This document shows positions 6,089 through 11,967 of a stretch of DNA of 14,587 nucleotides, piece after piece. The notes below the pieces were generated by a model. The model searched no databases. It saw nothing but the letters and a program-made list of their open reading frames with translations, and was not told the origin of the DNA. Each line of letters starts with the position of its first letter. The first letter of the stretch is position 1. The DNA comes from Desulfurococcales archaeon (GTDB lineage Archaea; Thermoproteota; Thermoprotei_A; Sulfolobales; Desulfurococcaceae). A program made the translations under genes and the position numbers. The DNA lies in NCBI GenBank assembly GCA_026985375.1, contig JALSQP010000055.1, forward strand, positions 1-14,587, in the 5' to 3' direction.

Positions 6089-6149
6089 GGTGCTCCGCAC
6101 CGTATTCTTAATTTAAGCCCGATAATAATAACCTGTATGTCAGCTCGCA

Positions 6150-6209
6150 TCGGGATGATGAGTTTGCCGATTACCGTAGCTCGTGCGGAATCTCCCGAAA
6201 TCTGACCAA
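6150..6209 (+). ncRNA. C/D box guide RNA candidate, probably directing 23S rRNA 2'-O-methylation
   Basis: The gap between divergent genes holds a C box ATGATGA (6155-6161) and a D box CTGA (6202-6205), 51 bases end to end, the usual size of archaeal C/D sRNAs. The inner boxes are degenerate but well spaced: D'-like CCGT (6174-6177) and C'-like GTGCGGA (6183-6189). This leaves two 12-base guides, 6162-6173 and 6190-6201. Reversed and complemented they read TAATCGGCAAAC and ATTTCGGGAGAT. From memory, a conserved 23S rRNA segment reads AAC-(U/A)-(C/A)-GGCAAA, then about 15 bases later CUUCGGGAGAAGG. The guides would match it over about 8 (UCGGCAAA) and 9 (UUCGGGAGA) bases. By the N+5 rule both target a C. 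The terminal stem is weak (about 2 G-C pairs). The 3' end comes close to the SD of the next gene. Confidence 0.7.
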
Positions 6210-6220
6210 GGTGTTATTTG

Positions 6221-6886
6221 ATGGGTAGAAACCTGGTATTACTAGACTATGATCTAACTCTTATGGACAACATGATTGATTTCTATGAAGCTTTCTCTGA
6301 ATCTTTGAAAAGATTTGGTTGTGAACCAGTGTCTTATGATATATTTGTTAAACATGTATTGGCCGATAGTCTGCATAATCTTCTTCCTTCAGAAATACAA
6401 CCATTAGAGTTTTGGACATATTTCCGGAGGATATACCCTAGTAAATCGGGCTATCCTATGAGGGGAGTTAAGCGCTTTCTCATTGTATTGAAGAGCCTGA
6501 ACATACCGCTAGTTATTATCTCTGGAAGAGATTCTCATCCTCTTCTTTTATGGCTTGAGCTGGCGCGGTTCGGATTAAATAATTATGTAGATGAAATATA
6601 TACAATGTTTGATCTAAGGATGTATGGCGGTATCGAAGAAGAACTATTCGATAAGAGCTGGCTCATAAGAATGGTTATAAAGAGGTATGGTGTGGAACCA
6701 TCACACGCTATATATATTGGTGATTACAAGCAAGATTACATCAGCTGTTCTAAGGTAGGGATAAGATTCATCGGTATAACTAGGTATCGTGAAAGAGCTG
6801 AAACTCTCAGAAAACTTGGAGCTGAGATTGTGGTAAGCGACTTTGATGAATTATTTTGTTATCTAGACAAGATAATTCGTTTCTAA
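6221..6886 (+). CDS. HAD-superfamily hydrolase (phosphatase-like), 221 aa
   Basis: The start is ATG 6221, with GGTG at 6210-6213 as SD and a 7-base spacer; an in-frame TTG at 6218 is unlikely. HAD motifs are complete. Motif I is DYDLTLMD at ~9-16, with nucleophile Asp 9 and Asp 11. Motif II is ISGRDS with Ser ~101. The motif III Lys is ~145 in LFDKSW. Motif IV is GDYKQD at ~167-172. Between motifs I and II a helical cap of ~80 residues suggests the phosphoglycolate-phosphatase-like (subfamily I) branch. The substrate cannot be read from sequence; possibilities are phosphoglycolate, a sugar phosphate or a nucleotide. It probably acts in the cytosol. A guide RNA candidate ends just before its SD, so the two may share a promoter region. 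Confidence 0.85.
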   Translation: MGRNLVLLDYDLTLMDNMIDFYEAFSESLKRFGCEPVSYDIFVKHVLADSLHNLLPSEIQPLEFWTYFRRIYPSKSGYPMRGVKRFLIVLKSLNIPLVIISGRDSHPLLLWLELARFGLNNYVDEIYTMFDLRMYGGIEEELFDKSWLIRMVIKRYGVEPSHAIYIGDYKQDYISCSKVGIRFIGITRYRERAETLRKLGAEIVVSDFDELFCYLDKIIRF

Positions 6887-6952: not shown

Positions 6953-7246
6953 TCAGTAAACTATAGCCATATATCGGCCATCAGGCCCCATTGTTGCAAG
7001 TCCTTGTTCGATAAGTGTTGATAAGGCCTTCCTTATTTTGTCTTCGCTGGCAATGCCAGATAATATGGTGTGTATTTCCCTGAGATTCATTGGTCTTTCA
7101 CTGATTAATTCTCGGATTATCTCTATGAGTTCGTCCTCATTAGGCGCTGTCATCAGCACGATGTCGCTATCCTCGTGAAGTATCTTTAACCTGATCTTTT
7201 TCATGAAGTACTCTATTTCCTTGTCTGTTAAGCTGATATTGTTCAT
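6953..7246 (-). CDS. Small winged-helix protein, probable transcriptional regulator, 97 aa
   Basis: The start is ATG 7246 (complement), 6 bases after GGTG at 7253-7256; the longer frame from GTG 7255 begins inside that SD. The N-terminal ~45 residues form one or two helices (LTDKEIEYFMKKIRLKIL). From ~45 on the protein resembles a winged helix: DELIEIIRELISE, then MNLREIHTILSG, then EDKIRKALSTLIEQGLA as the recognition helix, and a short wing (TMGPDGRYMAIVY). No ligand domain, cysteines or coiled coil are present. It could be a DNA-binding regulator or a small winged-helix protein of another machine. The palindrome CGATC-TATT-GATCG immediately upstream of its SD may be its own operator. Confidence 0.6.
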   Translation of the reverse strand: MNNISLTDKEIEYFMKKIRLKILHEDSDIVLMTAPNEDELIEIIRELISERPMNLREIHTILSGIASEDKIRKALSTLIEQGLATMGPDGRYMAIVY

Positions 7247-7255
7247 GCTTTCCAC

Positions 7256-9491: not shown

Positions 9492-10754
9492 ATGAGTTCC
9501 GAGGATGTGAATAGACTAATCGATAAGATATACGATTACAGCCTTGAGGCCAGGGAAATAATTTCTCGGTATGCCCACAAAACGCCTCTAATAACAAGCT
9601 ATACACTGTTAGGTATTGTTGGTCGTAACGTCTACTTGAAGCTCGAGAATCTACAGAAAACAGGTAGCTTTAAAGTTAGGGGGGCAATCTACAAGGTTTA
9701 CAAGATCATAGAGGAGGCGCGATCCAAGGGCGAGGAGGTAAAAGGAGTAGTAGCGGCTAGCAGCGGCAATCATGCACAGGGAGTGGCGTACGCAGCCAAA
9801 GTATTCGGGTTGAAAGCCGTCATAGTCATGCCGAAAATAACCTCAGCCACAAAAGTCAATGCAACTAGAAGTTATGGTGCGGAAGTTGTTCTTCATGGCA
9901 ATATATATGATGAAGCCTATGAGAAAGCGCTGGAGATCGCTCGGGAGAAAAATTACGTGTTCGTGCATCCTTATGATGATCCATATGTCATTGCTGGACA
10001 AGCTACAATAGGCCATGAGATAATGGACGAACTAGCCTCTCCTGGGTGTGTGCTCGTACCAATAGGGGGTGGAGGCCTAATCTCTGGTATAAGTATAGCG
10101 GTCAAGAAAAGAAATCCTGATACAAAGGTAATAGGGGTTCAGCCAAAGAATGCGCCAGCAATGTATAAGCTCCTAACGAGGAGCCTAGAAAATTATAGAC
10201 CTAAGCCATCAATAGCTGATGGGGTCGTAGTGAAGATGCCAGGTCAGATAACGAGTAAGATCGTGGAGAAACTCGTAGACGATATAGTATTAGTAGATGA
10301 GGAGGATATATCATATGCTATCAACTTCCTGCTCGAGAGAGCCAAGATAGTGGCAGAAGGAGCTGGTGCTCTACCAATCGCCGCATTGCTCTCGGGAAAA
10401 TACGCTCCACTAAAGGAACCAGTTGTATGCGTAGTCAGCGGAGGAAACATCGATCCAACACTGTTGTCAAGGATCATCATGCATGAGCTAGCGAAAGACG
10501 GAAGATTAGTCTCCCTAATAGGCGAAGTAGACGATAGGCCGGGAGAACTGGGCAAGGTGATAAAACTACTAGCTGAACATATGCTAAATATTGTTGATAT
10601 AAGACATGATCGCTGGGATCCCGCCTTACTGCCATCGAAAGCAAGAGTTGAGATAATAGTGGAGGCGAAAACACTAGATGATGTAGTGAAGGCTCTAGAA
10701 GAGCTCAAGAAGAAGGGATTAAAGTTCAGGGCGAGAAGTGGGCTAGTGAAATAG
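9492..10754 (+). CDS. ilvA: Threonine ammonia-lyase (threonine dehydratase) with C-terminal ACT domain
   Basis: This PLP enzyme converts L-threonine to 2-oxobutanoate and ammonia, the first step of isoleucine synthesis from threonine or of threonine breakdown. ATG 9492 has GGTGGG at 9480-9485 as SD. The 420 residues contain the PLP lysine K61 in LQKTGSFKVRGA, SSGNHAQG (90-97), the phosphate-binding glycine loop GGGG (192-195) and SGGN (316-319), as in fold-type II enzymes. From ~338 to ~412 there is one ACT domain (VSLIGEVDDRPGELGKV), which usually senses amino acids. A single ACT copy is shared by the short biosynthetic/catabolic class (about 400 residues). It is not the longer two-ACT bacterial IlvA, so allostery by isoleucine is not certain. 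The C-terminal 12 bases overlap the convergent HAD gene. Confidence 0.93.
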   Translation: MSSEDVNRLIDKIYDYSLEAREIISRYAHKTPLITSYTLLGIVGRNVYLKLENLQKTGSFKVRGAIYKVYKIIEEARSKGEEVKGVVAASSGNHAQGVAYAAKVFGLKAVIVMPKITSATKVNATRSYGAEVVLHGNIYDEAYEKALEIAREKNYVFVHPYDDPYVIAGQATIGHEIMDELASPGCVLVPIGGGGLISGISIAVKKRNPDTKVIGVQPKNAPAMYKLLTRSLENYRPKPSIADGVVVKMPGQITSKIVEKLVDDIVLVDEEDISYAINFLLERAKIVAEGAGALPIAALLSGKYAPLKEPVVCVVSGGNIDPTLLSRIIMHELAKDGRLVSLIGEVDDRPGELGKVIKLLAEHMLNIVDIRHDRWDPALLPSKARVEIIVEAKTLDDVVKALEELKKKGLKFRARSGLVK

Positions 10755-11387
10755 TTTTTTCAAATACTCAGGAATTTCGATTAGGTCCTCAATAACATAA
10801 TCAGCATATCTGCAAGCCATTCCACATGGGTTCACCGCGAAGGAGACGCCTACATTTCTGAATATAGTGATATCCCATGAACTATCACCGACATAGGCAG
10901 TCTTATTCATATGGATCCCATAATTTTCTCCGAGCTCACGCATAATCTCCAGCTTTTTGTCAGGAGGAACTCTTGGTACTCCACCTGGGATAAGCTCGTC
11001 GTCAATGAATAGCAGCTCATTATAATAACATTCACTAATACCCAGCTCGCGGCATACGCGTCTGACTAGTAAATCAACACCACTGCTGATAACGATCAGT
11101 TTAAAGCCGTCTTCTTTTAACATCTCAACTACTCTTCTAGCAGAGCTCCTTATTCTAACACCAGATAAAGCCTTGACTACATCTTTCTTCGTAATAGGTC
11201 TGCCGTAACTGTGGATCATTAGTGCTATATCGATCTTCATCCAGTCCAAGTAACTAATTAAACCCCGCTTATACAGGTCAGCGAAATAACTATTGTCTCT
11301 GCTCCCGAAGTACTCGTGTAGCACACCCCAACTGCTATGCTCAACGGTTAGTACGCCATCACAATCAAAGAACACTAATCCTTTCAA
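10743..11387 (-). CDS. HAD-IB phosphatase, phosphoserine-phosphatase-like
   Basis: Motifs of a phosphoserine-phosphatase-type HAD enzyme are complete. Motif I is DCDGVLT, with both aspartates. Motif II is VISSGVD. A Lys in PPDKKLEIM and motif IV GDSSWD follow, then the FAVNPCG segment. The cap between motifs I and II is helical. Substrates may be phosphoserine or another phosphomonoester. The start is uncertain: the frame reaches GTG 11399, but that GTG is part of GGTG. If GGTG (11397-11400) is the SD, TTG 11387 (M-KGLVFFDCDGVL, 214 aa) follows with a 9-base spacer and puts the motif at its usual distance from the N-terminus. It overlaps the upstream unknown gene by 23 bases, which implies coupled translation. 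It also overlaps the threonine ammonia-lyase gene tail to tail by 12 bases. Confidence 0.8.
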   Translation of the reverse strand: MKGLVFFDCDGVLTVEHSSWGVLHEYFGSRDNSYFADLYKRGLISYLDWMKIDIALMIHSYGRPITKKDVVKALSGVRIRSSARRVVEMLKEDGFKLIVISSGVDLLVRRVCRELGISECYYNELLFIDDELIPGGVPRVPPDKKLEIMRELGENYGIHMNKTAYVGDSSWDITIFRNVGVSFAVNPCGMACRYADYVIEDLIEIPEYLKKLFH

Positions 11388-11967
11388 GGCTTGACGCACC
11401 AGATGTACTCATTGATGAAACGATGTTTTTGATGTAGTCTAGTAGCTCATCAAGTGTTTTCGCATTGTATTTCAATTTAATTGTGCCGGATACATTGTAT
11501 GTAGAACCACCTATCTCTATGACGAGCTCTACATCGTCTAGCTTGAGAGAAACTCTGTTATCCTCAATACCTATCTTTGCTCTCGGAAACTCTTCCCTCA
11601 AATTCTCAACAATATTTTCCGGCGTTAGCGGTTTTTCCTCGCTAGCAAGATTGGGGAGTACCTCGTCAATAGCCTCCACAACACTTGGGAGCTCAGAATA
11701 TAGCTTCTTGGTCTCGATAAGTATCTCCTTGAGAACGTCCAGCTTGCTGGCTGATTTAAACAGAGATACTACAAGCTTGAAGTCTGCGCTCTTCAAGTAT
11801 TTAGCGAGATTTTCGGGGTTACCACCGAAGCTACTGAAATTATATTTTTCTTCGGCCTTTGCAATCATTTTTCGTACTTCGTCGATAATGCTAGCGACAC
11901 TTTTATTGTTCGAATACTCCGCCAGCTTAGAGTTCACAATATGTCTCAGAAAATCCGGGTACCTCAT
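11365..11967 (-). CDS. Hypothetical protein upstream of the phosphatase gene, 200 aa
   Basis: I do not recognise this protein. The preferred start is ATG 11967 (MRYPDFLRHIV), preceded by GGGAG with a 5-base gap. The longer frame from TTG 12042 passes through an AT-rich, promoter-like region and is less likely. Residues ~1-130 look all-helical and charged (KSVASIIDEVRKMIAKAEEKY and VLKEILIETKKLYSELPSVVEAIDEVLPNL). Residues ~135-195 look like a small beta sheet with a closing helix (KIGIEDNRVSLKLDDVELVI, YNVSGTIKLKYN, TLDELLDYIKNIV). There are no cysteines and no membrane segment. Gene overlap with the HAD phosphatase suggests the two are made together. A structural or regulatory partner role is only a guess. 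Confidence 0.65.
   Translation of the reverse strand: MRYPDFLRHIVNSKLAEYSNNKSVASIIDEVRKMIAKAEEKYNFSSFGGNPENLAKYLKSADFKLVVSLFKSASKLDVLKEILIETKKLYSELPSVVEAIDEVLPNLASEEKPLTPENIVENLREEFPRAKIGIEDNRVSLKLDDVELVIEIGGSTYNVSGTIKLKYNAKTLDELLDYIKNIVSSMSTSGASSLERISVL

Follow-up and report, generated by a model that had tools for sequence, protein, structure and literature searches.

A probable C/D box sRNA with two guides facing one 23S rRNA hairpin region, kept before a HAD-phosphatase gene across an archaeal family

The closest described counterparts of the element analysed here are the archaeal C/D box sRNAs of S. acidocaldarius, I. hospitalis and Pyrobaculum (PMC4644070; PMC7994747). Box order, guides of about 12 nt, a length of 51 nt, a terminal kink-turn with a short stem, two guides on nearby sites of one rRNA and an adjoining protein gene are common to those sRNAs and to ours. 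Archaeal C/D sRNA guides are described as evolving at an accelerated rate, their gene neighbourhoods as variable, and most archaeal sRNAs as overlapping or adjoining genes, with a 5′ overlap lowering transcription of the downstream gene (PMC7994747). Our element departs from its counterparts in having degenerate D′/C′ boxes, where 24 of 39 sRNAs show C-G instead of U-U, in keeping both guides near-strictly across a whole family, and in holding a fixed place before one gene. Two of its features, the constant HAD neighbour and internal boxes that lack the U-U of a kink-turn, exceed what is routine for such sRNAs. A second, looser parallel is the L7Ae mRNA, which L7Ae controls through a kink-turn beside the Shine-Dalgarno (SD) sequence (PMC5539422). 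Our locus likewise has a kink-turn in a likely 5′ leader beside an SD, but here it belongs to a full C/D sRNA whose rRNA guides are conserved. Among the papers matched for Desulfurococc- or Staphylothermus, none bears a title on this sRNA.

The window, by which we mean the whole 14,587-nt stretch of DNA analysed, contains the following features at and around the element.

6108..6133, + strand: A+T-rich stretch (TTAATTTAAGC, ATAATAATAA), a weak candidate for the promoter of the sRNA-HAD unit
6152..6153, + strand: GG, 5′ arm of the short terminal stem, its pairing kept between genera
6154-6156, + strand: GAT, kink-turn bulge, right after the GG arm
6155..6205, + strand: C/D box sRNA body, 51 nt, read from the sequence and from homologues (38 of the family's 40 genomes, that of the window among them)
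6155..6161, + strand: C box ATGATGA, canonical, near-invariant in 16 genera
6162..6173, + strand: guide 1 (D′ guide) GTTTGCCGATTA, 12 nt, pairs with 23S UCGGCAAA(U)
6169, + strand: G, fifth base from D′ (guide 1)
6174..6177, + strand: D′ box CCGT, degenerate; CTGA at the equivalent place in G017 and G037
6178-6182, + strand: 5-nt loop between D′ and C′
6183..6189, + strand: C′ box GTGCGGA, degenerate, covarying with D′
6190..6201, + strand: guide 2 (D guide) ATCTCCCGAAAT, 12 nt, pairs with 23S UUCGGGAGA
6197, + strand: G, fifth base from D (guide 2)
6202..6205, + strand: D box CTGA, canonical
6206..6207, + strand: CC, 3′ arm of the terminal stem
6209..6213, + strand: SD-like AGGTG of the HAD gene, 3 nt past the D box
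6221..6886, + strand: HAD-superfamily phosphatase gene (Pfam HAD_2, 1.5e-15; gene order), starting at ATG 6221, with TTG 6218 possible too

Direct reading bears out the C box ATGATGA, the D box CTGA, the 51 bases and the two 12-base guides of the first-pass annotation. Taken alone these boxes prove nothing, since their number is within chance: the pattern TGATGA-N(33-47)-CTGA occurs twice in the window against a mean of 0.80 in shuffles, and at least twice in 40 of 200 shuffles. The second C/D-like box pair, at 10435-10479 on the minus strand, lies within a coding region and is of chance-level frequency. The covariance search suggested by the same annotation brought no confirmation, as no Rfam family reached its gathering score and the best C/D matches had E values of 0.25 and worse. 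Membership in the C/D sRNA families sR60 (15.8 bits against a gathering score of 50) and sR11 (13.9 bits against 39) was rejected; the weak likeness is limited to the C box and the first guide bases, and the alignment leaves the remainder of each model out. An argument from folding was likewise dropped, because free-strand folding of three stretches was no better than shuffles (z of -1.13, +1.02 and -1.42, the first being a predicted long hairpin). Such an unremarkable fold is expected for an RNA shaped by protein but lends the sRNA no support.

With the boxes no better than chance, the reality of the sRNA was settled by comparison. It is present in 38 of the 40 genomes of the window's family (f1), the window's own counted. 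An exact pattern made of the C box, the guide 1 core and the guide 2 core matched 33 of 229 class genomes, namely 33/40 in f1 and 0/189 elsewhere, and its reversed control matched none. The D-guide pattern matched 34/229, gaining G042 (f1) and G171 (f2) and losing G034; it is not fully specific, its reversed control having matched three of the 229 (G000, G034, G212). Diverged copies were read upstream of the HAD gene in G013, G017, G037 and G051. Neither of the two remaining f1 genomes counts as a negative: the HAD gene lies at a contig end in G039, and a HAD match is absent in G040. Outside f1 the exact patterns matched 1 of 189 class genomes (G171), an absence that rests on exact patterns, which miss diverged copies as they did in five f1 genomes. 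Across the phylum (250 genomes), the D-guide pattern gave 14 matches, 12 of them in f1 and two, in G374 and G385, without guide 1; we take these two as chance because the reversed control matched 4 of 250 (G000, G212, G291, G380).

When one sRNA per genus is aligned (16 genera), only the boxes and guides stay alike, and the loop and flanks have diverged; the C and D boxes are near-invariant, with variants in g9 and g13. The terminal stem beside the C/D kink-turn changes in a compensating manner. With G-U counted as a pair, the 16 genera together form 37 bp, whereas swapping the 5′ and 3′ flanks between genera gave a mean of 14.8, and none of 20,000 such permutations reached 37; repeated with randomly picked representatives, the test gave permutation fractions of at most 0.008. 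The stem of any one sRNA is short: that of the window has 2 bp, and 5 of the 37 genomes examined have 0 bp. The box frequency and the Rfam result would both fit a spacer between divergent promoters that resembles a C/D sRNA by chance, but the presence of the sRNA in 38 of the 40 f1 genomes, a conservation confined to boxes and guides, and compensating stem changes contradict this reading, which can practically be dismissed.

The homologue of G013 (L076), upstream of the HAD gene, has the boxes ATGACGA (C) and CCGA (D) and a 32-nt internal loop that is apparently capable of forming a hairpin. Outside the family, G171 (L120 1505, f2) has one C/D sRNA, which shares the D guide (11 bp in our reading) and the type of D′/C′ boxes but has a different D′ guide that by hand count pairs over 6 bp only. 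No HAD match was found within 3.1 kb around it, and it may be an ancestral copy or a transfer. Inspection by eye of the 200 bases upstream of the two best non-f1 HAD homologues (G026 and G027; the weaker G022 and G024 were left out) found no C/D sRNA. Loss of the target as the cause of sRNA absence in other families was considered and rejected, the whole target being intact in L003 (f5), L007 (f7), L013 (f3) and G171 (f2). Three genomes, L002 (f9), L012 (f11) and L009 (f2), have a changed D target, with a loop reading TTCGGAAGA or CTAGGGAGA, and gave no match to the sRNA pattern; L004 (f3) has a change within the D′ target.

The window's own assembly (990,945 bases, 69% complete) gave no 23S match, and the 23S rRNA of the same-genus genome G001 was used as pairing reference in its place. 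Its target region reads ...GGGAACTCGGCAAATTGGCCCCGTAACTTCGGGAGAAGGGG..., and each guide finds a single best place in this 23S: guide 1 pairs over 8 bp, or 9 with G-U (TCGGCAAA), and guide 2 over 9 bp (TTCGGGAGA), the starts of the two matches being 21 nt apart. Among 20,000 shuffles of each guide, those of guide 1 gave an 8-bp match 1,948 times and those of guide 2 a 9-bp match 218 times, and in none did both matches fall within 40 nt of each other. We also moved a pair of 12-mers, arranged like the two guides, along both window strands, requiring 8 bp per 12-mer and both within 40 nt. Ten of 29,094 positions matched: five at the sRNA, four on the reverse strand overlapping the guide 2 bases, and one elsewhere. 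These results uphold the earlier proposal that the guides resemble neighbouring pieces of a conserved 23S region (UCGGCAAA and UUCGGGAGA), which are indeed adjacent in the real 23S sequences of relatives, and that such a double guide is unlikely by chance; two guides to nearby rRNA sites, which it had called a known archaeal pattern, are described as such in two papers, both of which list helix 61 of domain IV as a hotspot (PMC4644070; PMC7994747). The complementarity itself is modest, at 8-9 bp per guide, and we count this against the double-guide reading.

By the N+5 rule the predicted target cytidines correspond to E. coli columns 1672 and 1694. The first is the C of CUCGGC (column 1672, where E. 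coli has A; its position was counted by eye on the printed sequence) and the second the C of UUCGGG, equivalent to E. coli C1694. In our reading of the sequence, one lies before a CCCC/GGGG hairpin (CUCGGCAAAUUGGCCCCGUAACUUCGGGAGAAGGGG) and the other inside its loop. The two target segments are intact in all ten readable f1 genomes (G001, G008, G009, G010, G014, G018, G017, G034, G035 and G041), and a search for them in G013 and G037 gave no match.

The register of both guides is kept in most of the sRNAs. Counting the 38 f1 sRNAs and that of G171, the fifth base before D is G, opposite the target C, in 34 of 39; it is C in G011 and G031 and A in G036, each a one-base slip of the D guide, and C in G017 and G037, whose D guides have decayed, although G017's own target is intact. 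On the other side, the fifth base before D′ is G in 35 of 39, a count that depends partly on where we set the degenerate D′ boxes. The four g8 genomes have A there; their D′ box, ATGA, is set one base later, which shifts the register by one. Our placing of D′ is supported by the CTGA found at that place in G017 and G037. The sRNAs of these two genomes (L078 and L077, respectively) form a natural guide-loss variant, with a mismatched D guide (CTCCCACGA), a canonical D′ box and a near-canonical C′ box.

From the sequence, its conservation, the co-varying terminal stem, the complementarity, the register and the gene order, we conclude with high confidence that the element belongs to the archaeal C/D box sRNAs and carries two guides for a single 23S hairpin region; it would work along the following lines. 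The sRNA would be transcribed as the first element of a transcript running into the HAD-phosphatase gene, and be cut or trimmed out of it. Its terminal C/D kink-turn would nucleate an L7Ae-Nop5-fibrillarin particle, in which the D′ and D guides would pair with 23S rRNA before, and in the loop of, the short hairpin CUCGGCAAAUUGGCCCCGUAACUUCGGGAGAAGGGG. Fibrillarin would thereby be positioned for 2′-O-methylation of the cytidines at column 1672 and C1694. Since both guides could hold one hairpin region simultaneously, the particle probably doubles as a folding chaperone in 50S assembly.

The first-pass annotation had called the internal boxes degenerate. This holds, but the degeneracy is patterned, D′ and C′ changing together. 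A canonical kink-turn has U-U at the D′2-C′5 pair. The boxes are correctly spaced yet degenerate, with paired changes, and are near-canonical in G013, G017 and G037. Counted as genomes rather than independent events, the D′2-C′5 pair of the 39 sRNAs is C-G in 24, U-A in 6, G-A in 5, A-A in 3 and G-C in 1, and U-U in none; at D′1-C′6, the four g8 genomes have A-U and the other 35 sRNAs C-G. Within the C-G class of 24, the next C′ base, opposite G, is U (10), C (8) or A (6), so that the sheared A-G pair is replaced by G-U or G-C in 18. In most of f1 the internal motif thus looks, on sequence, like a short ordinary stem.

These counts invite a narrower form of the preferred explanation, in which the D guide alone directs methylation and the D′ guide is a pairing, or chaperone, arm beside an internal motif that is no L7Ae-binding kink-turn. 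The complete lack of U-U at D′2-C′5, with C-G in 24, and the 18 C-G sRNAs whose C or U opposite G removes the sheared G-A point this way. Against it, the D′ guide is conserved about equally with the D guide, its register keeps the fifth-base G in 35 of 39, and the near-canonical D′/C′ boxes of G013, G017 and G037 make a D′-side function plausible ancestrally. We regard this restricted version as a possible but rather unlikely alternative. The natural variants at one pair (C-G, U-A, G-C, G-A and A-A), facing one fixed target, make it testable whether D′-guided methylation needs a canonical internal kink-turn.

The double-guide sRNA also stands out for its neighbour. The product of the downstream gene has a general phosphatase signature only, and is 67-95% identical in five same-genus relatives. 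In all 38 cases the sRNA is followed by the HAD gene, within about 250 nt in 37 and at 2.1 kb in G036; the gene's likely start codon, chosen by us where several in-frame starts exist, is at most 36 nt from the D box in 33 of 38, the exceptions being G014, G044, G034, G051 and G036. The first-pass annotation had called the position next to the HAD SD unusual. What stands is that the place shortly before HAD is kept in most of f1; nearness as such is ordinary, sRNAs at most 25 nt from genes being common in archaea (PMC7994747). With guides and neighbour gene both held over 16 genera, the locus makes a good case for asking what selection keeps, and its place shortly before a start codon makes a coupling of guide-RNA assembly and translation testable.

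The HAD gene is probably co-transcribed with the sRNA. As the upstream gene is divergent in the window, a shared promoter upstream of the sRNA is probable. TATA-like scores in the A+T-rich flanks are mostly not above shuffles, the best in the window reaching only the 81st percentile, and we make no promoter claim from the window alone. The four g8 genomes have a clear TTTAAAA 33 nt before the C box (-33), with TATA-like scores at the 0.97-1.00 percentile, and G013, G171 and G044 score at 0.94-0.95. With AGGTG only 3 nt past the D box, a mature sRNA and an intact HAD leader would hardly come from the same RNA molecule.

In another reading, the element would serve chiefly as a leader acting in cis on the HAD mRNA: L7Ae or a whole C/D particle would bind the kink-turn immediately ahead of the SD and block translation, guide function being secondary or absent. 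A kink-turn shortly before the start (at most 36 nt from the D box in 33/38), the SD-like match 3 nt past the D box in the window, and the precedent of Sulfolobus L7Ae, which represses its own mRNA via an SD-masking kink-turn (PMC5539422), are all in keeping with it. A pure leader, however, would have no use for two segments whose complementarity to 23S persists over 16 genera, and in several members no SD-like match lies 30 nt or less from the D box. The sRNA is also kept where HAD is distant, which argues against a leader role as the main function: 2.1 kb and an intervening ORF separate the two in G036, the aligned HAD start is at least 78 nt away in G014, G044 and G034 (G044 offers an in-frame GTG at 25 nt as well), and the aligned residue 5 of HAD lies about 187 nt off in G051. 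We therefore consider a leader of this kind very improbable.

A bolder reading gives the transcript two mutually exclusive fates. Assembly of the C/D particle on the sRNA, immediately ahead of the HAD ribosome-binding site, would yield the guide RNA and remove or block the leader, and failure of assembly would let the phosphatase be made; the internal kink-turn would now be a paired stem and the particle asymmetric. The precedents of 5′ overlap and of the L7Ae kink-turn make a two-fate model for HAD reasonable by analogy, if unproven, and as a whole we rate this combined proposal as unlikely. If it were true, HAD output would serve as a readout of how much C/D protein is available or how much rRNA maturation is needed, and the staying together of sRNA and HAD across the family would be explained.

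The order TatD-like gene, unknown divergent gene, sRNA, HAD, 100-aa gene and B12/radical-SAM gene is largely kept in 20 loci, five of which are the same-genus relatives (G001-G005) that show the same order. The unknown divergent gene is unmatched in 5 of the 20 (L029, L032, L033, L035, L039), TatD in the short locus L031, and the radical-SAM gene in L033, where it possibly lies past the end. The ORF between sRNA and HAD gene in G036 (L046 174-1460; L128) encodes 428 aa on the opposite strand and has a sub-threshold Pfam match to a Cas12f1-like TNB domain (20.7 bits against a cut-off of 26.3); we suspect an IS605/TnpB-type insertion. A further HAD-superfamily gene lies in the window at 10743-11399 on the minus strand. 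The 100-aa protein, encoded at 6953-7255 on the minus strand and without a Pfam or NCBIfam family, is 57-99% identical in the 19 other loci compared and more conserved than its neighbours.
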